Positions 2,404 through 28,017 of a DNA stretch of 37,560 nt are shown here, one piece after another; position 1 is the first letter of the stretch; each line of letters starts with the position of its first letter. The DNA lies in assembly GCA_028749475.1 (NCBI GenBank), contig JAQVWN010000016.1, positions 1 through 37,560 on the forward strand, given 5' to 3'. The notes under the pieces were generated by a model. That model made no database searches and was not told the DNA's origin. It saw only the letters and a program-made list of their open reading frames with translations. Source of the stretch: Thomasclavelia sp. Lineage in GTDB: Bacteria; Bacillota_I; Bacilli_A; Erysipelotrichales; Coprobacillaceae. A program made the translations under genes and the position numbers.

Positions 2404-3897
<1,494 letters not shown>

Positions 3898-17078: not shown

Positions 17079-18188
17079 TTATTCCTCGTCAAATAATTTA
17101 GATACTTTCTTTAATAAATTAATTATTTCTAAATGTTGAGGACATACTCCTTCACATTGACCACATTCAATACAAGCTGATGCAGGATTTTGAGGAGCAG
17201 TAGAGTGCTTTGTATAGTAGTGTTTATAACGTGAACTTTTTCCATATAACATTTGACTATTATAGGCAGTAAATAATTCAGGTATTTCAACCTTCATAGG
17301 ACATCCTGGGACACAGTATCGACACTTGGTACAAGGAATTGTTGGTTGATTTAAAATCATATGGGTGATTTTATCAATGATTTTATATTCATCTTCATTC
17401 ATCTTTTTGAATTCACTCATTGTTTGAAGATTATCTTCTAATTGTTCCTGCGTAGACATTCCTGAAAGAACAGTCATTACTCCATCTAATGAAGCAATAT
17501 ACCTAAGAGCCCATGAAGCAATAGAGGCCCTTGGATTATAGTCTGTTAATTCACTTTCTATTTCTTTCGTAAAGCTAGCTAATGTTCCACCTTTAACAGG
17601 TTCCATAACAACAATAGGTACATTATGTTTTCTAGCAACTTCATAATTCTTTCGAGATTGAACAACTTCGTTGTTCCAATCTAAATAATTAAGTTGTAAT
17701 TGGACAAATTCTATTTCTGGATGAGCAGTTAATACTTCATCTAAGAGTTTAGAATCATCATGGAAAGAGAATCCAATATGTTTAATCTTTCCTTCTTCTT
17801 TCATTTTCTTTACGAATTCAAAACAGCCATATTTTTGATATGTTGGATAGTGACTTTCTTCAATACTATGCAATAGATAAAAATCAAAGTAATCTACTCC
17901 ACATAAAGATAATGATTCATTAAATATCCTTTCAACATCTTCTTGTTTGTTGATTTTCCATGCTGGAAGTTTATCAGCAAGAGTAAAAGATTCTCTAGGA
18001 TATTTATCTACTAATGTTTGTTTGATGGCAGCCTCACTACCAGCATAAGCATAAGCAGTATCAAAATATGTAAATCCTTTCTTCATAAAAGCATCTACCA
18101 TAGTTTGGACCTTATCAATAATGATATTCCCTTCTTCATCTTTTGGTAAACGCATTAAACCAAAACCTAATTTTGAATCTGATAACAT
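17079..18188 (-). CDS. Aldo/keto reductase with C-terminal 4Fe-4S domain
   Basis: 369 residues, COG1453 type. AKR barrel with Asp43 and Tyr48 (YFDTAYAYAG), Lys73 (ADKLPAW) and His107 (YLLHSIEE), then a C-terminal ferredoxin-like domain with two clusters of Cys: CTKCRYCVPGCPM and CIECGQCEGVCP. These Fe-S reductases are common in anaerobes; the clusters probably feed electrons to or from the barrel, but the substrate is not known. RBS AGGAGG. It has its own gap upstream (about 150 bp, an AACTTAAGTT palindrome at 18266-18275 and a TATAAT box) without the MerR-type dyad seen for the other two reductases. Confidence 0.92.
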   Translation of the reverse strand: MLSDSKLGFGLMRLPKDEEGNIIIDKVQTMVDAFMKKGFTYFDTAYAYAGSEAAIKQTLVDKYPRESFTLADKLPAWKINKQEDVERIFNESLSLCGVDYFDFYLLHSIEESHYPTYQKYGCFEFVKKMKEEGKIKHIGFSFHDDSKLLDEVLTAHPEIEFVQLQLNYLDWNNEVVQSRKNYEVARKHNVPIVVMEPVKGGTLASFTKEIESELTDYNPRASIASWALRYIASLDGVMTVLSGMSTQEQLEDNLQTMSEFKKMNEDEYKIIDKITHMILNQPTIPCTKCRYCVPGCPMKVEIPELFTAYNSQMLYGKSSRYKHYYTKHSTAPQNPASACIECGQCEGVCPQHLEIINLLKKVSKLFDEE

Positions 18189-18339: not shown

Positions 18340-18645
18340 TTAGTTTTCTTCGATATAATTATCAATTATTTTTAATGTTTGTTTTAAGTTTTGTTTTTGA
18401 TTTTTCATCATTTCTATTTTTTTATTTTGAGGTAAATCAAGATAAATTTTAATTTCTTTAAGTGAAATACCTGTTTGTTTTAAATCAACAATTTCTTTAA
18501 TTCTCTCTATTGTTTCTTTGGAATATAACCGCCGACCAATATCTGATCTAGTTATTTCATACATCCCAAGATTGTTGTAATATCTAAGGGTAGCAGCAGG
18601 CACATTGAGTAATTTAGAAACTTCTTGAATAGTATAATATTTCAT
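18340..18645 (-). CDS. Short MerR-family regulator
   Basis: 101 residues. N-terminal MerR HTH with YYTIQEVSKLLNVPAATLRYY, the wing motif GRRLYSKETIERIKEI and LKQTGISLKEIKIYL, followed by a short dimerisation coil (KKIEMMKNQKQNLKQTLKIID). It lacks a C-terminal ligand domain, like NmlR/AdhR-type regulators of aldehyde stress. Last gene of an operon with a MATE exporter; its RBS lies in the end of the MATE gene. It is the only MerR gene in the window and hence a candidate regulator for the three 19-bp-spacer promoters at 2323, 4719 and 7773, though no such dyad precedes its own operon. Confidence 0.88.
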   Translation of the reverse strand: MKYYTIQEVSKLLNVPAATLRYYNNLGMYEITRSDIGRRLYSKETIERIKEIVDLKQTGISLKEIKIYLDLPQNKKIEMMKNQKQNLKQTLKIIDNYIEEN

Positions 18646-18647
18646 AA

Positions 18648-20012
18648 TTATTCTAAAACCTCCTGATTATTTAATTTCTTTTTAATAAAATATCTAAAGT
18701 AATTAACATTAGTTATGGTTGTTATTAAGTCAGATATTGGTTCTGCTAAGACTACAGCGATTAAGGAATTTGGTAGGACTAAAGGTAAAATAAATATTAA
18801 AGGAATTAATAAGATAATCTTTCGATAAAATGCAAAGAAAAATGATCTTTTACCTTCACCAAGTGAATTATAAGTTTGTTGACAAGTAGAGTTAGCACCC
18901 ATAATAAAGCAACCAAAAATGTACACTCTAAGCATTGAAGATGCCATAGTCATAAGTTTAGGATCACTAGTAAATAATCCAACAAATATTTGAGGGAAAA
19001 GTTCCATACAAAGAGTACCAACAATGCTATAAGTCAGAGTAATCTTAATAGCTAAAGAGATTGTCTTTTTAACTCTATCGTAGTTTTTCGCTCCATAATT
19101 ATAGGAAATTATTGGTTGTGATCCTTGGGCAACACCTTCCATTGGAAGTAATAAAAGCTGAAACATCGATGCCATAATTGTCATTGAACTGACAGCCATA
19201 TTCCCTCCATAATATAATAGTTGCTGATTAAAACAGATTGTTAGTAATCCTTCCGTAGCAGACATAAAGCAAGGTGCTGCTCCTAGAGTTAAGACTTTTT
19301 TCATAATACGCCACTCAGGTTTTAATAATTTCTTTTCAATTTTAAGAATTGTTGTTTTACCAAATAAGAATTTTAGTACCCAGATGCAAGAAACACCTTG
19401 AGCAATAATCGTAGCTAAAGCTGCTCCTTTGATTCCCATGTTTAAACCATAAATAAAGATTGGATCTAAAACAATATTCAGTAGTGCCCCAATCATAATG
19501 GTCATCATCCCAAATTTAGTAAATCCTTGAGCATTGATAAAATAATTCAAACCAACTGTAAGTTGGACAAAGATTGTACCAAGTGAATAGATAGAAATAT
19601 AATCAGTGGCATAAGTAATTGTTTCTTTACTAGCCCCAAACATGTATAAAATATTATTTTTAAATAATAATACGGTAAGAGTAATGATAATTGATGATAT
19701 CGCTAAACAGATAAAACTATTAGAAAGGATATGATTAGCTTCATGATGATTACCTTCACCTAGTTTAATTGAACTAAGTGGCGCTCCACCTCGACCAAAT
19801 AAGCCATTAAAGGCATTTATTATTGTTGTTAAAGGAACACATAATCCAATAGCTGCCATGGCCATTGCCCCACCAGGCATTCTTCCAATATACATTCGAT
19901 CTACCATATTGTAGATTAGAGATACTATTTGAGCAAATATTGAAGGTATTGCAAGCGACCATAATAATGAAGATATATTTTGAGAAGCTAATCTTTCTTC
20001 CATTTTATTCAT
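18648..20012 (-). CDS. MATE-family efflux transporter
   Basis: 454 residues with about twelve hydrophobic helices in two homologous halves. The opening SLLWSLAIPSIFAQIVSLIYNMVDRMYIG and the repeated-half LGAAPCFMSATEGLLTICFNQ are typical of MATE exporters (DinF/NorM-like, Na+ or H+ coupled). Start ATG 20012 follows a perfect AAGGAGGT. Overlaps the upstream C_GCAxxG gene by 8 nt. Exports drugs or metabolites; substrate unknown. The MerR gene that follows may regulate it. Confidence 0.93.
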   Translation of the reverse strand: MNKMEERLASQNISSLLWSLAIPSIFAQIVSLIYNMVDRMYIGRMPGGAMAMAAIGLCVPLTTIINAFNGLFGRGGAPLSSIKLGEGNHHEANHILSNSFICLAISSIIITLTVLLFKNNILYMFGASKETITYATDYISIYSLGTIFVQLTVGLNYFINAQGFTKFGMMTIMIGALLNIVLDPIFIYGLNMGIKGAALATIIAQGVSCIWVLKFLFGKTTILKIEKKLLKPEWRIMKKVLTLGAAPCFMSATEGLLTICFNQQLLYYGGNMAVSSMTIMASMFQLLLLPMEGVAQGSQPIISYNYGAKNYDRVKKTISLAIKITLTYSIVGTLCMELFPQIFVGLFTSDPKLMTMASSMLRVYIFGCFIMGANSTCQQTYNSLGEGKRSFFFAFYRKIILLIPLIFILPLVLPNSLIAVVLAEPISDLITTITNVNYFRYFIKKKLNNQEVLE

Positions 20013-20406
20013 CTAAGCACCTCCTTAACATTTTATAACCACCAACTAAAACATCAGTACAACATCTTTCTTTACAATTAGTTTTTAAGATATCACTACA
20101 TTTTAAAGACCTATATTCATCTTTAAATTCCATTGCTAAACATTTAGCACAGGCATAACTTTCTAGTTTAGTTTGAGGATTTTCTAGATTACTATCACTA
20201 GTTTCTAGAAAAGATACAATCATAGAACTAATTATCGGAATACAGCACATATCCTCGAGTCCTCCAACTCCTCTTCCTAGTCCTTCAGATAACTTAAATA
20301 GTTTTTGTTTATCAATATTTAATTCATCTGACCATACACATAAAAATGCTTGGGCACAGTTATAACCTTTTTTATGTAGTTTTCTTATTTCTTGTTCTTT
20401 GTTCAT
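20005..20406 (-). CDS. C_GCAxxG_C_C family protein
   Basis: 133 residues with eleven or so Cys. YNCAQAFLCVWSDELN, GLGRGVGGLEDMCC, SYACAKCLAMEFK and the late CKERCCTDVL match the C_GCAxxG_C_C family pattern (PF09719), where paired Cys may bind a metal or cycle between thiol and disulfide. Here the central GCAxxG reads CCIPIIS, so it is a degenerate member. No signal peptide. First gene of the operon with the MATE exporter and the MerR regulator, which hints at a redox or toxic-thiol response. Function is unknown in the family. Confidence 0.85.
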   Translation of the reverse strand: MNKEQEIRKLHKKGYNCAQAFLCVWSDELNIDKQKLFKLSEGLGRGVGGLEDMCCIPIISSMIVSFLETSDSNLENPQTKLESYACAKCLAMEFKDEYRSLKCSDILKTNCKERCCTDVLVGGYKMLRRCLDE

Positions 20407-20480
20407 ATTTTCACCTGACTTTATAATTAAATGATAATTATTTAAGATATTAAAAAAAGAGATATTAAGATTATTAAAAC

Positions 20481-20527
20481 ATCATTTACAAATATATTTA
20501 CAAAAATCAGTGTAAATTGTAAATGAT
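20481..20527. promoter_or_regulatory. Inverted-repeat operator ahead of rpiR-type gene
   Basis: ATCATTTACA (20481-20490) and TGTAAATGAT (20518-20527) form a perfect 10-bp inverted repeat. Two further half sites, ATTTACA (20496-20502) and TGTAAAT (20511-20517), lie between them. The same half site recurs ahead of the SemiSWEET gene. Confidence 0.65.
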
Positions 20528-20566
20528 ATTTTAATATGCTAATATTTAAATAAAGAAGGTGATTCA

Positions 20567-21457
20567 ATGTTACTAATTGATGAAATGAAACAATATCCAT
20601 TTTCTAATAGTGAAAGAATAGTAGTTGATTATATCCTAGAAAACAAAGAAAAAATCAAAGACTATTCAACAAAACAAATAGCCGAGGCGACTTATACATC
20701 CCCTTCTATTCTAATTAGAATAGCTAAAAAACTAAGCTTTAAAGGATGGAATGATTTAAAAGCTGCCTATCTAGATGAACTAACATATTTAAACAGTCAT
20801 TTTACAGATATTGATGCCAACATGCCATTTAATAATCAAGATTCTATTACTACAATCGCTAATAAAATATCTAAACTACATAGCGAAAGTATTAATGATA
20901 CACTTTCTCTGATTAACCATGATTCACTGCAAAAAGCAGTTCAAATCATGCGTAAGAGTTCAAAAACGAACATCTTTGGAATAAGTAACATGAATTTTCT
21001 AGCCATGAATTTTGCATTTAAACTAAAAAGAATCGGTAAAGATGTCGAATGTGATCCAATTAGTGAAAACCTGTTTCAAAACGCTTCTATGGCCACTAAG
21101 AGTGAGTGTGCAGTCTGTATTTCTTATTCTGGACAAACACTAGCAATTCTTAAAGTTGCACGGATATTAAAGAAAAACAACGTTCCGATAATAGCTATCA
21201 CTAGTATGGGTAATAATGATTTATCCAAACTTGCAGATGTAACATTAAACATTTCAACAAGAGAACGTTCTTATTCAAAAATTGGAGCTTTTACATCAGA
21301 GGAATCTATCAACTTAATTTTAGATATTTTATTTTCTTGTCTATTCTCACTAAACTATCAAGCAAACTTAGATTATAAACTAGCTATCGCTAGTCAAATA
21401 GAAGTTGGAAGAGTAATAGATAATCCAATTATTGAAGAAAAAGTCAAAGAAGATTAA
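20567..21457 (+). CDS. RpiR/MurR-family regulator
   Basis: 296 residues. N-terminal HTH_6 domain (about 1-78, YPFSNSERIVVDYILEN ... YTSPSILIRIAKKLSFKGWNDLKA) and a C-terminal SIS sugar-phosphate-binding domain (about 115-260, with GISNMNFLAMNFAFKLKRIG and CISYSGQTLAILKVARILK). Such regulators sense sugar phosphates. RBS GAAGGTG. Converges on the SemiSWEET gene, and shares with it the operator half site ATCATTTACA, so it probably represses both itself and the transporter. Confidence 0.92.
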   Translation: MLLIDEMKQYPFSNSERIVVDYILENKEKIKDYSTKQIAEATYTSPSILIRIAKKLSFKGWNDLKAAYLDELTYLNSHFTDIDANMPFNNQDSITTIANKISKLHSESINDTLSLINHDSLQKAVQIMRKSSKTNIFGISNMNFLAMNFAFKLKRIGKDVECDPISENLFQNASMATKSECAVCISYSGQTLAILKVARILKKNNVPIIAITSMGNNDLSKLADVTLNISTRERSYSKIGAFTSEESINLILDILFSCLFSLNYQANLDYKLAIASQIEVGRVIDNPIIEEKVKED

Positions 21458-21485
21458 AAATAGAGGAAATATTTCCTCTATTTTT
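21456..21485. terminator. Bidirectional terminator between RpiR and SemiSWEET genes
   Basis: A perfect palindrome, AAAAATAGAGGAAAT then ATTTCCTCTATTTTT, with A- and T-runs on either side; serves both convergent genes. Confidence 0.9.
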
Positions 21486-21486
21486 T

Positions 21487-21735
21487 TTATTTATATTTAA
21501 TTTTAAAAATTAAGATAATTCCAGCTAAGATAAATGTTATTCCATTAGCTACGATTAAAGATATATCTCCAATATTTACTCCATGAATAATCCATAAGAA
21601 TACTCCTAATACAAACATTGAATACATTCCAAGTGAAATACCTGAAGTATCTTTTGTCTTTATTACTTGGACTGCTTGAGGTACAAAACTAAGCGTTGTA
21701 AGACATGCAGCAATTGGGCCTATAAATTCTAACAT
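21487..21735 (-). CDS. SemiSWEET sugar transporter
   Basis: 82 residues, three transmembrane helices (about 3-22, 38-56, 60-78), the standard size of a bacterial SemiSWEET. The PQ motif is in LSFVPQAVQVIKTKDTSGIS, which is the family's signature loop. Functions as a dimer that lets sugars diffuse across the membrane; the sugar is not known. Strong RBS GAGGAGG. Its 170-bp upstream region holds a 13-bp inverted repeat and a TCATTTACAAATGA near-palindrome at the RBS, both sharing the half site found ahead of the RpiR gene. Confidence 0.9.
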   Translation of the reverse strand: MLEFIGPIAACLTTLSFVPQAVQVIKTKDTSGISLGMYSMFVLGVFLWIIHGVNIGDISLIVANGITFILAGIILIFKIKYK

Positions 21736-21748
21736 AATAATATCCTCC

Positions 21749-21762
21749 TCATTTACAAATGA
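21749..21762. promoter_or_regulatory. Near-palindrome at the SemiSWEET RBS
   Basis: TCATTTACAAATGA overlaps the GGAGG region of the SemiSWEET gene and carries the same TCATTTACA half site as the RpiR-type operators, so it may be a second operator. Confidence 0.5.
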
Positions 21763-21810
21763 AAGATATCATTAATAATTGATCTGAGAAATATATTATT
21801 CTTGTTTTAA

Positions 21811-21862
21811 AATGTCATTTACATTTTTTAACAATAGATGTTTGTTATTTGTAAATGACATT
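21811..21862. promoter_or_regulatory. 13-bp inverted-repeat operator ahead of SemiSWEET
   Basis: AATGTCATTTACA (21811-21823) and TGTAAATGACATT (21850-21862) are perfect inverted repeats with a 26-bp spacer. On the minus strand ATGACA at the near edge, 17 bp, then TATATT could be the promoter. The motif repeats that of 20481-20527, which favours an RpiR operator; a weak terminator for the flavin reductase is the alternative. Confidence 0.65.
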
Positions 21863-21909
21863 TATATTATATTTATTATTCCTAAAAAAGTGGAAACATT
21901 ATATTTAAG

Positions 21910-22464
21910 TTACTTTTCATATATTCCTTCAGGTACCCATTTTGCCATTAGATCATGATAATCCTTGATATCGCCATCAACAATAAATCTACCATCACCA
22001 ATAGCATGAAATCCTTTTTCCATAATATATTTTTCATTGATTACTAAACGTTTTGGTTCAAGAATTACTATTCCATATTTTTCAATATAATCCGTTACAA
22101 TACATTCGATATTAGCTTTACACTCAACTATCAAAGGAGCTTTAACATTCTTTCCTTTTTCTTTTGTTAAGTCAAAGAGTTTAAACTTATCAACTTTACT
22201 TCCATTAATAGTACCTATTCTGACACACTTTTCTATCATTGAAGCAGTTGGAATTGCTACAACACATTCTTTATTTGTCATTAATGTTTCAAATGATTCA
22301 TTCCAAGGTCCAGTAGAAATAGCTATATTTCCTTCAAAGTTCATAGCCATAGTCCAAGATATAGTCATTACATTATCTTTTGCACCATTTCTAGTTGTAA
22401 TAAGTGTTACAGGTCCTGATTCAATAAATGTAAATACTTTAGAAAGTGAAAGTTCTTTCAACAT
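21910..22464 (-). CDS. Flavin reductase-like FMN-binding protein
   Basis: 184 residues, flavin-reductase-like split barrel (COG1853). The segments VTLITTRNGAKDNVMTISWT and IAISTGPWNESFETLMTNKECVVAIP hold the FMN-binding and core strands, followed by IECIVTDYIEKYGIVILE. Probably a small NAD(P)H:FMN oxidoreductase or flavoprotein; the partner is unknown. Strong RBS AAGGAGAG. Lies downstream of the lipoprotein array on the same strand, with no clear terminator between, so read-through from the T7SS operon is possible. Confidence 0.88.
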   Translation of the reverse strand: MLKELSLSKVFTFIESGPVTLITTRNGAKDNVMTISWTMAMNFEGNIAISTGPWNESFETLMTNKECVVAIPTASMIEKCVRIGTINGSKVDKFKLFDLTKEKGKNVKAPLIVECKANIECIVTDYIEKYGIVILEPKRLVINEKYIMEKGFHAIGDGRFIVDGDIKDYHDLMAKWVPEGIYEK

Positions 22465-22530: not shown

Positions 22531-23118
22531 TTATTTTGAAATCACATTTTCATCATACATTTTATTTCCATACAAAACTAAATCTTTTTCACTAATACCT
22601 GCATTGTCTAATAACTTTTGGACATCTTTCTTATAGAAATCAATACATCCCTTTCTTACATCACCAGATGCCTCTTTATAGTAACCTGAAAGAAATTTTT
22701 CACCATCATCAACTTTAGTACTAGGATCTCCATTTATAATATACACACTCGCCTTATTGTCTTTATTTTTCTCAATATATACATATTTTATTTTATATTT
22801 ATTCCAAATAACGAAAGTATATTTTTCATCATCATCAATAGTATTATCACATATTCCTATGTCTGATAAACCATCTTTTGAAAAAACAAAAGTAATATCA
22901 AGTACATTTTCTTTTGTCGACAATTGAATAGTAGATAAACTTCCATTATTTTCATCTTTTTTAATTTTTATTTCAAAATAATTATTAATCTTTTCTTTGA
23001 TTGTCTCAATATCTTGTTGCTTGCCTGCTAAGCTAAATTTTTTGACTTCTTCTTTTTTGTTCGAAGCGCAGCCAACCAACATAAATAAACAAATTATAAT
23101 AGTAATATATTTTTTCAT
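22531..23118 (-). CDS. Lipoprotein 5 of the immunity-like array
   Basis: 195 residues, last of five tandem paralogues. Signal peptide MKKYITIIICLFMLVGC with lipobox LVGC, so a surface lipoprotein. The tail YGNKMYDENVISK differs from the others, which end in TTNE. It is a mosaic: residues about 48-85 match copy 3 (NNYFEIKIKK..NGSLSTIQLST), GICD matches copy 2, and from about 105 on (FVIWNKYKIKYVYIEKNKDN and SGYYKEASGDVRKGC) it matches copy 1. Likely an immunity or decoy protein against an LXG toxin acting outside the membrane; this is inferred from position. Confidence 0.85.
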   Translation of the reverse strand: MKKYITIIICLFMLVGCASNKKEEVKKFSLAGKQQDIETIKEKINNYFEIKIKKDENNGSLSTIQLSTKENVLDITFVFSKDGLSDIGICDNTIDDDEKYTFVIWNKYKIKYVYIEKNKDNKASVYIINGDPSTKVDDGEKFLSGYYKEASGDVRKGCIDFYKKDVQKLLDNAGISEKDLVLYGNKMYDENVISK

Positions 23119-23165
23119 ATCAACTTCCTCTTTTATTATTAGTTACAGCCATTATTATTTTATAA

Positions 23166-23756
23166 TTATTCATTAGTTGTCTGATTTTCTTTATATTGTT
23201 CTTCTCCATATAAAACTAAATCTTTCTCACTAATACCTGCTTTATCTAATAATTTCTTTTGGATATCATTCTTATAGAAATCAATACATCCCTTCCTTAT
23301 ATCACCGGATGCCTCATTATAATATGACATAAATTTTTTGCCATCAGTAACCTTCGTATTAGGATCTCCATTTATTATATACATGCTCATTTTATGATCT
23401 ACCATTTTATTGAAATTTACATATTTTAGTTTATATTTATATCTAATAACAAAAGTATATTTTTCACCATCATCAATAGACTCATCATTTATCTCTATGT
23501 ATGACAATTTATCTTTTGAATCACTAATAATAATAGAAAGAATATTTTTTTCTGTCGATAAGTAAATATAATCAAGTCCTTTATCTTTTTCATCTTTTTT
23601 AATCTTTACATCGAAATAATTGTTAATCTTTTCTTTGATTGTCTCGATATCTTGTTGCTTGCCTGCTAAGCTAAATTTTTTGACTTCTTCTTTTTTGTTC
23701 GAAGCACAGCCAACCAAAATAAATAAACAAATTATAATTGTAATATATTTTTTCAT
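23166..23756 (-). CDS. Lipoprotein 4 of the immunity-like array
   Basis: 196 residues from the ATG at 23756, with AAGAGGAAGT just upstream; a longer frame to 23846 is rejected because it runs into the previous gene and lacks a signal peptide at its start. Lipobox LVGC after MKKYITIIICLFI. Middle part (DEKDKGLDYIYLSTEKNIL, IISDSKDKLSYIEINDES) is the most divergent of the five; from KYVNFNKMVDHKMSMYIING it follows copy 2. Ends YKENQTTNE. Anchored outside the membrane; presumed immunity protein from context. Confidence 0.85.
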   Translation of the reverse strand: MKKYITIIICLFILVGCASNKKEEVKKFSLAGKQQDIETIKEKINNYFDVKIKKDEKDKGLDYIYLSTEKNILSIIISDSKDKLSYIEINDESIDDGEKYTFVIRYKYKLKYVNFNKMVDHKMSMYIINGDPNTKVTDGKKFMSYYNEASGDIRKGCIDFYKNDIQKKLLDKAGISEKDLVLYGEEQYKENQTTNE

Positions 23757-23802
23757 ATTAACTTCCTCTTTTATTTTAGGTATAAACTTGTTTATTTCAT
23801 AA

Positions 23803-24393
23803 TTATTCATTAGTTGTCTGATTTTCTTTATATAGTTCTTTTCCATACAAAACTAAATCTTTTTCACTAATACCTGCTTTATCTAATAATTTCTTTTGGA
23901 TATCATTCTTATAGAAATCACTACATCCTTTTCTTATATCGCCAGATGCCTCTTTGTAATGTGAAATAAATTTTTTTCCATCAGCAATCTTCGTATTTGG
24001 ATCACCGTTAATAATATACACACTCGATTTATTATCTTCGATTTTGTCTAAATATACATATTTAATTCTATATTCATACCGAATCAAAAAAGTATATTTT
24101 TCATCATCATCAATAGTATTATCACTTATTAATATTTTTGATAACCCATCTTCTGAAAAAACAAAAGTAATATCAAGTACATTTTCTTCTGTCGATAATT
24201 GAATAGTAGATAAACTTCCATTAGTTTCATCTTTTTTAATTTTTATTTCAAAATAATTATTAATCTTTTCTTTGATTGTCTCCATATCTTGTTGCTTACC
24301 TGCTAAACTAAATTTTTTGACTTCTTCTTTTTTATTCGAAGCACAGCCAAGCAACATAAATAAACAAATTATAACAGTAATATACTTTTTCAT
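23803..24393 (-). CDS. Lipoprotein 3 of the immunity-like array
   Basis: 196 residues from the ATG at 24393 (RBS AAGAGGAAGT), rather than from 24426. Lipobox LLGC. The early middle (FEIKIKKDETNGSLSTIQLS) is nearly the same as in copy 5, the later middle (LIRYEYRIKYVYLDKIEDNK) is unique, and the end YKENQTTNE is shared with copies 2 and 4. RKGCSDFYK has Ser where the others have Ile. Presumed immunity protein for an extracellularly acting LXG toxin. Confidence 0.85.
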   Translation of the reverse strand: MKKYITVIICLFMLLGCASNKKEEVKKFSLAGKQQDMETIKEKINNYFEIKIKKDETNGSLSTIQLSTEENVLDITFVFSEDGLSKILISDNTIDDDEKYTFLIRYEYRIKYVYLDKIEDNKSSVYIINGDPNTKIADGKKFISHYKEASGDIRKGCSDFYKNDIQKKLLDKAGISEKDLVLYGKELYKENQTTNE

Positions 24394-24440
24394 ATCAACT
24401 TCCTCTTTTATTGTTAGGCAGAGCAATTATTATTTCACAA

Positions 24441-25031
24441 TTATTCATTAGTTGTCTGATTTTCTTTATATAGTTCTTTTCCATACAAAACTAAATCTTT
24501 TTCACTAATACCTGCTTTATCTAATAATTTCTTTTGGATATCATTCTTATAGAAATCAATACATCCCTTTCTTATATCACCAGATGCCTCATTGAAATGT
24601 GAAATAAATTTTTTGCCATCATCAATCTTAGTATTAGGATCTCCATTTATAATATAAACGCTCATTTTATGATCTACCATTTTATTGAAATCTACATATT
24701 TTATTTTGTATTTATTCCAAATAGAAAAAGTATATTTTTCACCATCATCAATAGAATCATCACATATTCCTATTTCTGATAAACCATCTTTTGAAAAAAT
24801 AATAGCGATAGAAAGTTCATTTTCTTCTGTTGATAGAGAAATACCAATTACATGTTCATCCTCTTCAGATTTTTTGATTTCTACATCAAAATAATTGTTA
24901 ATCTTTTCCTTGATTGTCTCAATATCATGTTGCTTACCTGCTAAACTAAATTTTTTGACTTCTTCTTTTTTTTTCGAAGCACAGCCAACTAACATAAATA
25001 AACAAATTATAATAGTAATATATTTTTTCAT
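24441..25031 (-). CDS. Lipoprotein 2 of the immunity-like array
   Basis: 196 residues. Lipobox LVGC, then CASKKKEEVKKFSLAGKQ. The middle FDVEIKKSEEDEHVIGISLST resembles copy 1 in its KKS..D.H pattern. The segment KYVDFNKMVDHKMSVYIING is shared with copy 4. The conserved tail GDIRKGCIDFYKNDIQKKLL has one extra Lys relative to copies 1 and 5. Same operon as the toxin. Presumed immunity protein. Confidence 0.85.
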   Translation of the reverse strand: MKKYITIIICLFMLVGCASKKKEEVKKFSLAGKQHDIETIKEKINNYFDVEIKKSEEDEHVIGISLSTEENELSIAIIFSKDGLSEIGICDDSIDDGEKYTFSIWNKYKIKYVDFNKMVDHKMSVYIINGDPNTKIDDGKKFISHFNEASGDIRKGCIDFYKNDIQKKLLDKAGISEKDLVLYGKELYKENQTTNE

Positions 25032-25078
25032 ATTAACTTCCTCTTTTATTGTTAGTTAGAGCCCTTTTTATTTCATAA

Positions 25079-25669
25079 TTATTCATTAGTTGTTTTAATC
25101 TCTTTATATTGTTCTTTTCCATACAAAACTAAATCTTTTTCACTTATACCTGCTTTATCTAATAACTTTTGGACATCTTTCTTATAGAAATCAATACATC
25201 CCTTCCTTACATCACCAGATGCCTCTTTGTAATAACCTGAAAGAAATTTTTCACCATCATCAACTTTAGTACTAGGATCTCCATTTATAATATATACACT
25301 CGCCTTATTGTCTTTATTTTTCTCAATATATACATATTTTATTTTATATTTATTCCAAATCACAAAAGTATATTTTTCATCATCATCAATAGAATTATCA
25401 CTTATATCTATGTATGATAATCCTACTTTTGAATAAATAAAAGCAATAGAAAGATCATTTACATCTGTCGATAAGCCAATAGCAACTAAATGTCCATCTT
25501 GTACAGATTTCTTTATTTTTACATCAAAACAATTGTTAATCTTTTCTTTGATTGTCTCGATATCTTGTTGCTTACCTGCTAAACTAAATTTTTTGACTTC
25601 TTCTTTTTTATTAGAAGCACAGCCAACCAACATAAATAAACAAATTATAACAGTAATATATTTTTTCAT
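25079..25669 (-). CDS. Lipoprotein 1, directly downstream of the LXG toxin
   Basis: 196 residues from the ATG at 25669, 20 nt after the toxin stop codon; the alternative start at 25684 lies inside the RBS (GGAGGAAAT). Signal peptide MKKYITVIICLFMLVGC with lipobox. Unlike the others it has Cys in INNCFDVK. The last part (KYVYIEKNKDNKASVYIING to KDVQKLL) is almost identical to copy 5. As the first gene after the toxin it is the best candidate for the cognate immunity protein. A precedent is the lipoprotein immunity TilA for S. aureus T7SS lipase TslA; homology to it is not claimed. Confidence 0.87.
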   Translation of the reverse strand: MKKYITVIICLFMLVGCASNKKEEVKKFSLAGKQQDIETIKEKINNCFDVKIKKSVQDGHLVAIGLSTDVNDLSIAFIYSKVGLSYIDISDNSIDDDEKYTFVIWNKYKIKYVYIEKNKDNKASVYIINGDPSTKVDDGEKFLSGYYKEASGDVRKGCIDFYKKDVQKLLDKAGISEKDLVLYGKEQYKEIKTTNE

Positions 25670-25689
25670 ATCAATTTCCTCCATTGTTA

Positions 25690-27366
25690 TTAGTTATAGT
25701 CATCTTTTGTGATTTCATCATTTTGTTTATTATAAGAATATTCATTTTTAAGTTTATATCTAGCTGAATATTCATAGTTCGAATCAGTAGAAACCGGTTT
25801 CATGTCATATGCTTTATGAGTGTATTTTCTCTCATTTAGCTCTTTGATTTCACCAGAATCATCATTTTCCACACCAATAAAATTAAATGACTCAGAATTT
25901 ACAATCTTTAGTTTATCTTCTTTACTTAGTTTATTAACACTATTTTCAGATAATTTTGGATTACCATCTTTACCTATTTTTAAAGCATCCCATTGCGTTA
26001 CAAAGTTTCTATCTTTGCTATCAACAATAAATTCACAGTGTCCATCATTGACAACAAGTTTATCGTTTATTTGATGCTCGTTAGTAGGAGTATTTCTATC
26101 ATGATAATAAGATCTTACATCATAATTGATTTCTTTTCCTTCTTGAGATGCACAGTAAACAAGTTTTTCATAATCATTATTTCCGACACCATGTGTTCTT
26201 ACATAATTGATGTTTTGTCTATCAATATACATTCTAAACTGTGATACATGCTGAAAATCCTTACTTGTAGGGTCAAATCCGACCACAGCTTTCATTGAGA
26301 ACTTGTTCCAAAAATCATCAAATGGTGAAAGATTTGCATCAAATTTGTAGCCATCTTTTTTAAATTTGAGATTTCCATTAGAATCCATATATCCACCCAT
26401 TTGTTTTTTAATCATATTATCGACAATTTTATTATCTGGTAGTTTAGAATTATCAAATAATATTTGATAGTTCTTTGATCCTACTTTTTTGGTTTGAGCA
26501 AAATTATCTAATAAAGACTTTTTAACTGATTCATAAGGCTGGTTTTCAAAGTCTGCTGTTACATTTTTAAAATATCCATTAATTGCAGGTTTATCCCAAC
26601 CATCTTTTTTTAATTGAGTATTTTCATCAACGATAGTTTTTAAATATTCTTTCTTTTCTTCAACCGTCATGTTACTTGGAATTTTAACATTATTAAAATC
26701 AATATCGTTAACATTCATAGTAACATTACAAAAAGAGTTATTAGCATATAAAGGTGTGAAATCGTATTTTCCATTATAAGTTGAAATAACATTTTTAAGT
26801 GATTCTATTGATTGATTAATAGATGAATTTAAATCTTGGCAATTAGTAAAGAATGAAGCTGTACTACCATAAAAAGATTTAAATTTATCTAAGATAGCTT
26901 GATATCTTTTAATCATTGAATCAATTAATTCGTTAGTAGCAATTAGTTGACCTAACAATCCATTCGCACTACTATTTTTATCAGTTCCATTATCTGTTTG
27001 AAAATTAGATATATTAACCATTAGACTATTCTTTGATTTAGTTAAATGATTAATCTGTTCTATTACCCCATCTTCATTTACTTCATAGATATCATAAACA
27101 TCACCTATAGACGTAGTAAAGCTGTTATTCATTTTATCAATGGAATCAACTAAATCATTCATTAGATTTTTTAAACTCTTAATCAAAACCACTGTATTTG
27201 AATATAATTCTTTAGTGTTATCAATTGTTTCACTAGTAGAACTATCTGAATTTATTTTTTTAATCTTTTTAGTAATACTATTTAGATCTTTAATTTGACT
27301 ATCAATATCACTCTTTATAGATTTTTTTACATTATTTATAGATTTTGAATTATAAAAATACCCCAT
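25690..27366 (-). CDS. LXG-like T7SS effector with unassigned C-terminal toxin domain
   Basis: 558 residues. N-terminal half (about 1-220) is helical and coiled, with the LXG-type layout: MGYFYNSKSINNVKKSI start, ELYSNTVVLIKSLKNLMND helix, a GDVYDIYEVNEDGVIEQ turn, then long helices to near 205. A linker follows and the C-terminal half (about 230-558) is globular, charged and without a signal peptide. The block QFRMYIDRQNINYVRTHGVG ... CEFIVDSKDRNFVTQWDALK resembles, from memory, DUF3114-type domains; unverified. Its enzymatic activity is unknown. Starts as TAATG with the helper gene. Downstream lipoproteins suggest it acts at the outer face of the membrane. Confidence 0.78.
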   Translation of the reverse strand: MGYFYNSKSINNVKKSIKSDIDSQIKDLNSITKKIKKINSDSSTSETIDNTKELYSNTVVLIKSLKNLMNDLVDSIDKMNNSFTTSIGDVYDIYEVNEDGVIEQINHLTKSKNSLMVNISNFQTDNGTDKNSSANGLLGQLIATNELIDSMIKRYQAILDKFKSFYGSTASFFTNCQDLNSSINQSIESLKNVISTYNGKYDFTPLYANNSFCNVTMNVNDIDFNNVKIPSNMTVEEKKEYLKTIVDENTQLKKDGWDKPAINGYFKNVTADFENQPYESVKKSLLDNFAQTKKVGSKNYQILFDNSKLPDNKIVDNMIKKQMGGYMDSNGNLKFKKDGYKFDANLSPFDDFWNKFSMKAVVGFDPTSKDFQHVSQFRMYIDRQNINYVRTHGVGNNDYEKLVYCASQEGKEINYDVRSYYHDRNTPTNEHQINDKLVVNDGHCEFIVDSKDRNFVTQWDALKIGKDGNPKLSENSVNKLSKEDKLKIVNSESFNFIGVENDDSGEIKELNERKYTHKAYDMKPVSTDSNYEYSARYKLKNEYSYNKQNDEITKDDYN

Positions 27367-27698
27367 TAATAACCTTCACTCCTTATCTTTTGAATCTCTT
27401 CTTGCAATTCTCTTTCATTTAACTTTTTCTTTTTTATATCATTTTCGTATTCTTCATCTAATATATTTTGAAGTCTTAAAATAGTCTTTTTTTTATCACT
27501 CAAGTCATCATATGCATTCTCTAAATACTTATTTTCTCCTTTAATACCACTATTACCAAATTGTTTCATCATACCATCTAATTGAAATAGATAATCATCT
27601 ATACAATTGTTGTTATTGTTTCTAGTTTTAACTATTTCATCTATTTCATTTTCAATACTATTTAGTTCATCTTTAATTTTTAAATATTCATCATCCAT
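27366..27698 (-). CDS. Small coiled-coil LXG partner (YwqH/DUF5082-like)
   Basis: 110 residues, almost entirely helical with heptad-like spacing (LKIKDELNSIENEIDEIVK, then DDLSDKKKTILRLQNILDE) and a highly charged tail. The size, position and pattern match the targeting/chaperone proteins that pair with LXG toxins, for example YwqH (DUF5082) ahead of YwqJ in B. subtilis or Lap proteins of streptococci. Ends in a TAATG overlap with the toxin gene, so it is co-translated. Function as export partner is inferred. Confidence 0.75.
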   Translation of the reverse strand: MDDEYLKIKDELNSIENEIDEIVKTRNNNNNCIDDYLFQLDGMMKQFGNSGIKGENKYLENAYDDLSDKKKTILRLQNILDEEYENDIKKKKLNERELQEEIQKIRSEGY

Positions 27699-27702
27699 TT
27701 TG

Positions 27703-27954
27703 TTATAACTTCATCTTTCTTGCTTGAGCTTGATCATTTTCTTCTGATTTTTTCACATATGTATTTAGATTTTTAGTTATACTATGAATATGTGTATTTA
27801 AATCATCAAGCATGGCATTTAAAGATCCACTCAAAGCATTGACTGAGTTTTCAACATTTGTAGAATTCATATCATAAGACTTTTTGATAGATGCTTTTAT
27901 ATTATCATCATTTAGTGATTCTACTTTGTGTTTAAATTCTTTTTTTATTTCCAT
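27703..27954 (-). CDS. Small WXG100-like LXG partner (DUF5344/DUF3130-like)
   Basis: About 83 residues from the ATG at 27954 (AAGTGAG upstream); the longer frame starts with TTG at 27972 and lacks an RBS. Two helices separated by a loop near SYDMNSTNVENSVNAL, and a C-terminal tail YVKKSEENDQAQARKMKL that resembles the export tail of WXG100-like proteins (aromatic-xxx-Asp-xxx-Ala pattern). No WXG. First gene of the T7SS operon; likely Lap-type partner of the toxin. Confidence 0.75.
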   Translation of the reverse strand: MEIKKEFKHKVESLNDDNIKASIKKSYDMNSTNVENSVNALSGSLNAMLDDLNTHIHSITKNLNTYVKKSEENDQAQARKMKL

Positions 27955-28017
27955 CGTTTTACTCACTTTCAACTAGTTCATTAAGTATTTATATTTAGAT
28001 TAATTAAATATATAAAA

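Follow-up and report, generated by a model that had tools for sequence, protein, structure and literature searches.

The RpiR-family regulator and the SemiSWEET sugar transporter encoded next to each other in a 37,560-nucleotide stretch of Thomasclavelia sp. DNA (the window) share a specific site upstream of both genes, made of two dyads. The site recurs in front of SemiSWEET genes in other genera, and the link between regulator, site and SemiSWEET is well supported by sequence comparison. That part of the original prediction stands. The idea that the regulator is dedicated to the SemiSWEET does not, since there are other predicted targets.

The window is an entire contig (C14) of a genome of 1.84 Mb in 43 contigs (G000). 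The rpiR and SemiSWEET genes are convergent, and they and the features around them are as follows.

17079-18188, minus strand: aldo/keto reductase with a 4Fe-4S domain; orthologues lie in the rpiR/SemiSWEET clusters of relatives.
18340-18645, minus strand: MerR-family regulator, at the end of the MATE operon, where it is placed by co-direction only.
18648-20012, minus strand: MATE-type exporter (PF01554), in one operon with the C_GCAxxG_C_C gene; predicted target.
20005-20406, minus strand: C_GCAxxG_C_C redox-active-type protein (PF09719), divergent from rpiR across site S1; predicted target.
20474-20534: site S1, with dyads at 20474-20490 (11/14 matches) and 20518-20534 (12/14) whose starts are 44 bp apart; the site separates rpiR from the divergent C_GCAxxG_C_C-MATE operon.
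20567-21457, plus strand: RpiR-family regulator, with HTH_6 and SIS sugar-phosphate-binding domains.
21456-21485: bidirectional terminator-like hairpin between the convergent rpiR and SemiSWEET genes, from the terminator scan.
21487-21735, minus strand: SemiSWEET sugar transporter, 82 aa.
21749-21762: lone half-site, the third match reported earlier, overlapping the predicted SemiSWEET transcription start; its role is doubtful.
21807-21866: site S2, with dyads at 21807-21823 (12/14) and 21850-21866 (13/14), starts 43 bp apart, upstream of the SemiSWEET gene.
21910-22464, minus strand: flavin reductase-like protein, upstream of the SemiSWEET gene; a 64% homologue follows the SemiSWEET in genome G033.

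A GH1 gene lies 17.6 kb distant in the window (2404-3870), and the genome-wide scan with the site model R1, described below, lists no site there at E<=10. On the other side, five tandem paralogous lipoprotein-like genes of about 195-226 aa (22531-25684, minus strand) lie downstream of the gene for a 558-aa protein. The five share a near-identical signal peptide and 'KKEEVKKFSLAGKQ' start, and neither of the two that were tested has a Pfam match. In the region 25690-27972 (minus strand), the 558-aa protein has a C-terminal DUF3114 match (PF11311, 72 bits) and is preceded by two small proteins with no Pfam match, a layout that may resemble secreted effector loci of the LXG type, in which immunity genes are duplicated.

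The original prediction had placed one repeat pair before rpiR, a second before the SemiSWEET gene and a third recurrence at 21749-21762, and all three sequences are found where it placed them. The two pairs hold up. There are seven matches to TCATTTACA in the window against 1.20 expected, a number reached in none of 100 shuffles; five of them are the reported half-sites and two lie elsewhere (15701 and 25455). The paired pattern TCATTTACA-N0..30-TGTAAATGA occurs twice in the window and in none of 100 shuffles, and TCATTTACA-N8..30-TGTAAATGA finds the same two places and no others in the whole 1.84-Mb genome (reversed-pattern control, 0). The 7-mer halves alone, ATTTACA-N22..30-TGTAAAT, also return these two places, with three in the reversed control; both the pairing and the TC/GA bases next to the halves are therefore important. 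Taken singly, with up to 2 mismatches allowed, dyads show no enrichment in the genome (45 vs 77 in the control); the single dyad was therefore dropped as the unit and the pair alone was used. The significance belongs to the paired, extended site. The third sequence is present but is a single half-site with no dyad pair, at a position that is not conserved in relatives. It is ruled out as a full site and may be a chance occurrence.

The full site is larger than first reported. From the upstream regions of RpiR relatives it was recognised as two 17-bp dyads, TGTAAATN3ATTTACA, separated by 26 bp and covering about 60 bp in all. In a sample of the window and 19 other loci (366,149 bases), 16 pairs with at least 22/28 matches have a start-to-start spacing of 43; the next best spacing has 5, and shuffles give a mean of 0.17 per spacing. 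The minus strand of S2 contains a perfect 14-bp inverted repeat, and its symmetry is stronger than in most relatives' sites.

The sequence-only model R1 was built from 17 sites of eight relatives, aligned over 60 columns without gaps. Because the relatives' sites were first sought with the window's half-site, R1 depends partly on the window, and it is with this dependence that it ranks S2 first (E 2.1e-5) and S1 second (E 1.2e-4) in their own genome. No information on the spacing, on the location ahead of rpiR in other genera or on the other target genes entered the site search. The third place in the genome is G000:C2:25250-25297 (E 7.4e-4) and the next has E 0.06; the genome-wide search thus returned three sites at E<0.01, and not a motif in front of many unrelated genes. 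An ungapped 60-bp matrix with the 43-bp spacing misses S1 (z 1.9) because its spacing is 44; 37 of 85 rpiR upstream regions pass this matrix and that of the window fails. The pattern search across the family also hit places far from rpiR or coding-like (e.g. G013:C2, G020, G027, G040), and the R1 hits of the family scan that were analysed further were mostly those up to about E 0.001.

The regulator is a two-domain protein by its Pfam matches, PF01418 (49.7 bits) and PF01380 (61.8 bits), both above the gathering cut-off. It falls in none of the named NCBIfam equivalogs (AlsR, MurR, HexR and others), the best score being 112 against a cut-off of 378. Its SIS domain has an S-x-S-x-x-T phosphate loop (S186, S188, T191), of which S186 and S188 are invariant in 13 rows; the pattern was borrowed from S179/S181/T184 of SpNanR (PMC12713135). 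Orthologues at 59-63% identity are found in 7 family genomes, and a quick tree places the protein inside a 23-row clade with an SH-aLRT support of 100.

Across genomes, the site tracks this RpiR group as judged by comparison. With thresholds of E<=1e-80 for the orthologue and E<=1e-4 for the R1 site, a strong site is present in 15 of the 19 family genomes that have the orthologue and in 2 of the 24 that do not (43 genomes, p 2.6e-6). When the eight genomes that supplied the sites are left out, the counts are 7/11 and 2/24 (Fisher p 0.0013). Of the 66 RpiR loci searched outside the family, 19 have an R1 match at E<=0.01, in 16 of them no more than about 150 bp upstream of rpiR; these loci belong to Bacillaceae, Exiguobacterium, Enterococcus and Trichococcus. 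The site is missing at L077, L078, L079, L080, L085 and L090, the six RpiR genes tested from other lineages. The paired-dyad site would also be a regulon motif common to RpiR proteins of Erysipelotrichia, Bacillaceae, Enterococcus and Exiguobacterium, and RpiR would bind it, probably as a tetramer.

The transporter is a single 3-TM MtN3/PQ-loop unit above the curated cut-off (NCBIfam NF037968 SemiSWEET_2, 108.1 bits vs 80; PF03083, 36.9 vs 23.7). Its relatives in the PDB are 9kax, 4qnc and 4x5m, the last of which we take to be the E. coli SemiSWEET protein. The PQ motif is formed by P19 and Q20, and W48 and N64 are pocket residues. A phmmer match (5-78 on 7-80 of 4x5m) aligns these four with P21, Q22, W50 and N66, which are named as residues of E. 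coli SemiSWEET (PMC4309421).

There are 18 SemiSWEET matches in the family, one of them (G034) weak and partial. The gene is directly behind the site in three of the 18 (the window, G002 with a spacing of 44, and G005) and in a co-oriented run headed by the site in five more (two more in G005, and those of G006, G013 and G029). Ten of the 18 copies have no such site in front, and the SemiSWEET run of G033 has none directly in front. At one locus of G005 (L051:16419-16986), two tandem SemiSWEET genes are followed by a GH1 gene, with one site ahead of all. In Trichococcus (L181 and L185), SemiSWEET and a 6-phospho-beta-glucosidase of family GH1 (814 bits vs a cut-off of 624 in L181) are divergent from rpiR with the site between them. 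This site is weak (17-18/28 matches, R1 E 0.13-0.17), keeps the 43-bp spacing and passed the shuffled control. A Trichococcus-like RpiR region is also present in a record of Sedimentibacter sp. SX930 (L182:9549-9887), where the SemiSWEET frame looks broken; its RpiR groups with Trichococcus in the tree, and contamination or a pseudogene is possible. Five of the ten copies without a site in front (L077, L079, L080, L085 and L090) form a separate set, in which SemiSWEET is directly behind a different RpiR, with 23-25% identity to the reference RpiRs and no R1 site at E<0.01. In L077 and L079 the SemiSWEET is followed by a 6-phospho-beta-glucosidase above its curated cut-off. These five loci are apparently a second, independent RpiR-SemiSWEET pairing.

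The SemiSWEET gene is one of several genes behind the site. S1 also faces the divergent C_GCAxxG_C_C-MATE operon of the window; both genes follow the site in G002 (Beduini massiliensis) and G005, the C_GCAxxG_C_C gene follows it in G011 (Faecalibacillus intestinalis), and MATE orthologues are found downstream of it in relatives. The third site of the genome precedes a TauE/SafE-like transporter gene, to which a gene of the G013 rpiR cluster is 59% identical. Behind the relatives' sites are LacY-like MFS, EamA and MATE transporters, aldo/keto reductases and an iron-containing alcohol dehydrogenase. This dehydrogenase is distantly PRK15138-like (175 bits vs a cut-off of 645), PRK15138 being presumably YqhD, and a 4Fe-4S aldo/keto reductase comes after it. 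A clear dedicated regulator of the SemiSWEET, as had been proposed, is ruled out by these other targets.

A common promoter lies at a fixed distance from the site in the target genes. When 21 target flanks were aligned on the nearer dyad, they shared a -35 element that begins with TT at index 33 and, after a spacer of 17 bp, a -10 element at index 56; none of 500 shuffles was as conserved. Three subsets have the same best offset: 17 flanks (without L051), 8 flanks (the window and G002) and the remaining 9 flanks. The promoter score was reached by 0/500, 0/500 and 2/500 shuffles, respectively, and the sequence conservation of the 9-flank subset by 0/500. The centre of the nearer dyad is near -59 and the -35 element is poor beyond its TT, as expected for an activator site. 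At rpiR itself, the half-site TTGTAA serves as the -35 element, and in two relatives the -10 element is a perfect TATAAT; an overlap of site and promoter is as expected if RpiR limits its own synthesis. A promoter at the operator edge was considered for all genes and holds for rpiR only, the common target promoter lying further on. The promoter-like sequences of the window are the following.

20517-20545, plus strand: rpiR promoter-like TTGTAA-17-TAATAT; the -35 is the proximal half-site of S1.
21763-21791, minus strand: predicted weak SemiSWEET promoter, with -35 TTTCTC (21791-21786), -10 TATCTT (21768-21763) and start near 21756, placed by the conserved distance to S2.
21790-21818, minus strand: competing SemiSWEET promoter-like ATGACA-17-TATATT, 10/12 matches; the -35 is inside S2.

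The position of the site upstream of a weak promoter is an average over the targets; the SemiSWEET gene of the window also has the overlapping sequence, which scores better than the predicted promoter, and the number of such sequences in the region is at chance level. The spacing to the promoters suggests activation of the targets rather than simple repression, and the Gram-positive RpiR relatives GlvR, ClaR and SpNanR are activators (PMC4286628, PMC12713135).

Classical repression through the same link of RpiR and site is the most serious alternative, possible but rather unlikely. A tetramer on both dyads would block the promoters until a sugar phosphate releases it, as in E. coli MurR. A SemiSWEET promoter overlapping S2 would imply repression, and the sequence with its -35 inside S2 is such a candidate; the rpiR promoters, with the perfect TATAAT of two relatives, overlap the site as well, and for E. 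coli MurR, bridging of two neighbouring sites, which overlap the -35 and -10 elements, has been proposed (PMC12713135). However, the target flanks have their other promoter at a fixed distance, on which the three subsets agree, and the characterised Gram-positive RpiR proteins are activators (PMC4286628).

It is improbable that a different regulator binds the shared site and that the proximity of rpiR is incidental. In favour of it, the genome has 11 further RpiR-like matches, and binding by the RpiR of the window is a prediction from comparison. Against this, the site and this RpiR group occur together across the 43 family genomes and in distant genera, repeatedly before rpiR, and none of the six RpiR genes tested from other lineages has it. 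Still further from likely is an RNA hairpin at S2, either a terminator or the 3' end of the flavin-reductase transcript, in place of a protein site. The minus strand of S2 does fold at -16.6 kcal/mol (z -5.15), but the stem is not followed by a U-run, S2 has no Rfam match and no hit in the terminator scan, and S1 and S2 have conserved half-sites, which relatives also keep in places where there is no hairpin.

The neighbours of the wider group point to the kind of ligand. The genes most often present within 7 kb of rpiR, in a set of 80 RpiR loci, are those for GH1 (29 loci), GH4 (22), a beta-glucoside-type PTS permease (16) and a PRD/CAT antiterminator (11), and ClaR responds to cellobiose-6-phosphate (PMC4286628). 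A phosphorylated beta-glucoside is therefore the leading guess for the ligand, drawn from sister clades and ClaR, and glucose is a first guess for the sugar carried by SemiSWEET. The glucosidase neighbours were not accepted as proof of the ligand of the window RpiR, because its strict orthologues outside the family have epimerase or aldo/keto reductase genes as neighbours, not beta-glucosidases. A Cof-type HAD phosphatase gene follows SemiSWEET in G002 and G005 and precedes it in G016, which, by analogy with the YigL-SetA response of E. coli, suggests dephosphorylation followed by export.

Activation, which is preferred over repression, can be built into a model of a local regulon that is, as a whole, somewhat better than evenly likely. 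RpiR, probably a tetramer and sensing a sugar phosphate, would bind the 60-bp site with its two dyads about four DNA turns apart, and the target operons would be the SemiSWEET gene, the C_GCAxxG_C_C-MATE operon and the TauE-like gene. With the nearer dyad centred about 59 bp upstream of the start, beside the poor -35 element, ligand-loaded RpiR would switch the targets on. Towards rpiR, the regulator bound at the divergent site would cover the promoter of its own gene and so hold down its own production. As a passive sugar channel, SemiSWEET would release the unphosphorylated sugar from a sugar phosphate that has been split or dephosphorylated, the source sugar being most likely a beta-glucoside phosphate.

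A more speculative extension, offered as one chance among several, is that the system is a relief valve. The RpiR activator would sense a phosphorylated beta-glucoside or its product and turn on SemiSWEET as a passive exporter of the freed sugar, together with other exporters and with reductases that would remove the aglycone or reactive aldehydes; the partner in relatives would be the Cof-type HAD phosphatase or the 6-phospho-beta-glucosidase. If true, the SgrR-YigL-SetA logic would have a Gram-positive counterpart, and a bacterial SemiSWEET would have a physiological role. In any case the SemiSWEET now has a candidate regulator that is specific, along with a defined 60-bp site and a set of genes that would be co-regulated with it. 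The inducing sugar could be found through the ligand of RpiR, and the transported sugar could then be predicted from the inducer. In the literature collection that was searched, no paper joins SemiSWEET with RpiR, and the papers found for SemiSWEET with 'transcriptional activator' are plant work by their titles.

Several known systems resemble parts of this one. ClaR of Lactococcus lactis (PMC4286628), compared by its description, is an RpiR-family activator of cellobiose/lactose genes whose signal is cellobiose-6-phosphate. It has the same architecture and a Gram-positive host, and the wider group is likewise tied to phospho-beta-glucosidase and cellobiose-type PTS genes; unlike here, SemiSWEET and a palindromic site are absent from the available part of that description. 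E. coli MurR is also of the RpiR family, and its SIS domain (7en5) ranks second among the PDB matches of the window protein. Its tetramer is proposed to bridge two adjacent sites with 17 bp between them and a span of 47 bp, whereas the dyads described here are 26 bp apart and span 60 bp; MurR represses MurNAc genes, and here activation is favoured (PMC12713135). SpNanR, which acts on sialic acid genes, is closer in mode, being an activator with an effector-stabilised tetramer and a phosphate loop of the same pattern, but its site is one 18-bp near-palindrome with a degenerate half-site, and the sequence, ligand and targets differ (PMC12713135).

The SgrR/SgrS-SetA-YigL response of E. coli to glucose-phosphate stress links a sugar phosphatase with a sugar exporter (PMC13060122), as the SemiSWEET of relatives adjoins a Cof-type HAD phosphatase. 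It differs in the regulator family and the transporter and in its small RNA, of which none is seen here, and the SemiSWEET of the window has no adjoining phosphatase gene. The catalogue of SemiSWEET contexts by Jia et al. 2018 (PMC5972207) names, in its available part, neither a regulator nor a binding site, and it places SemiSWEETs in carbohydrate-metabolism operons, as is the case here.
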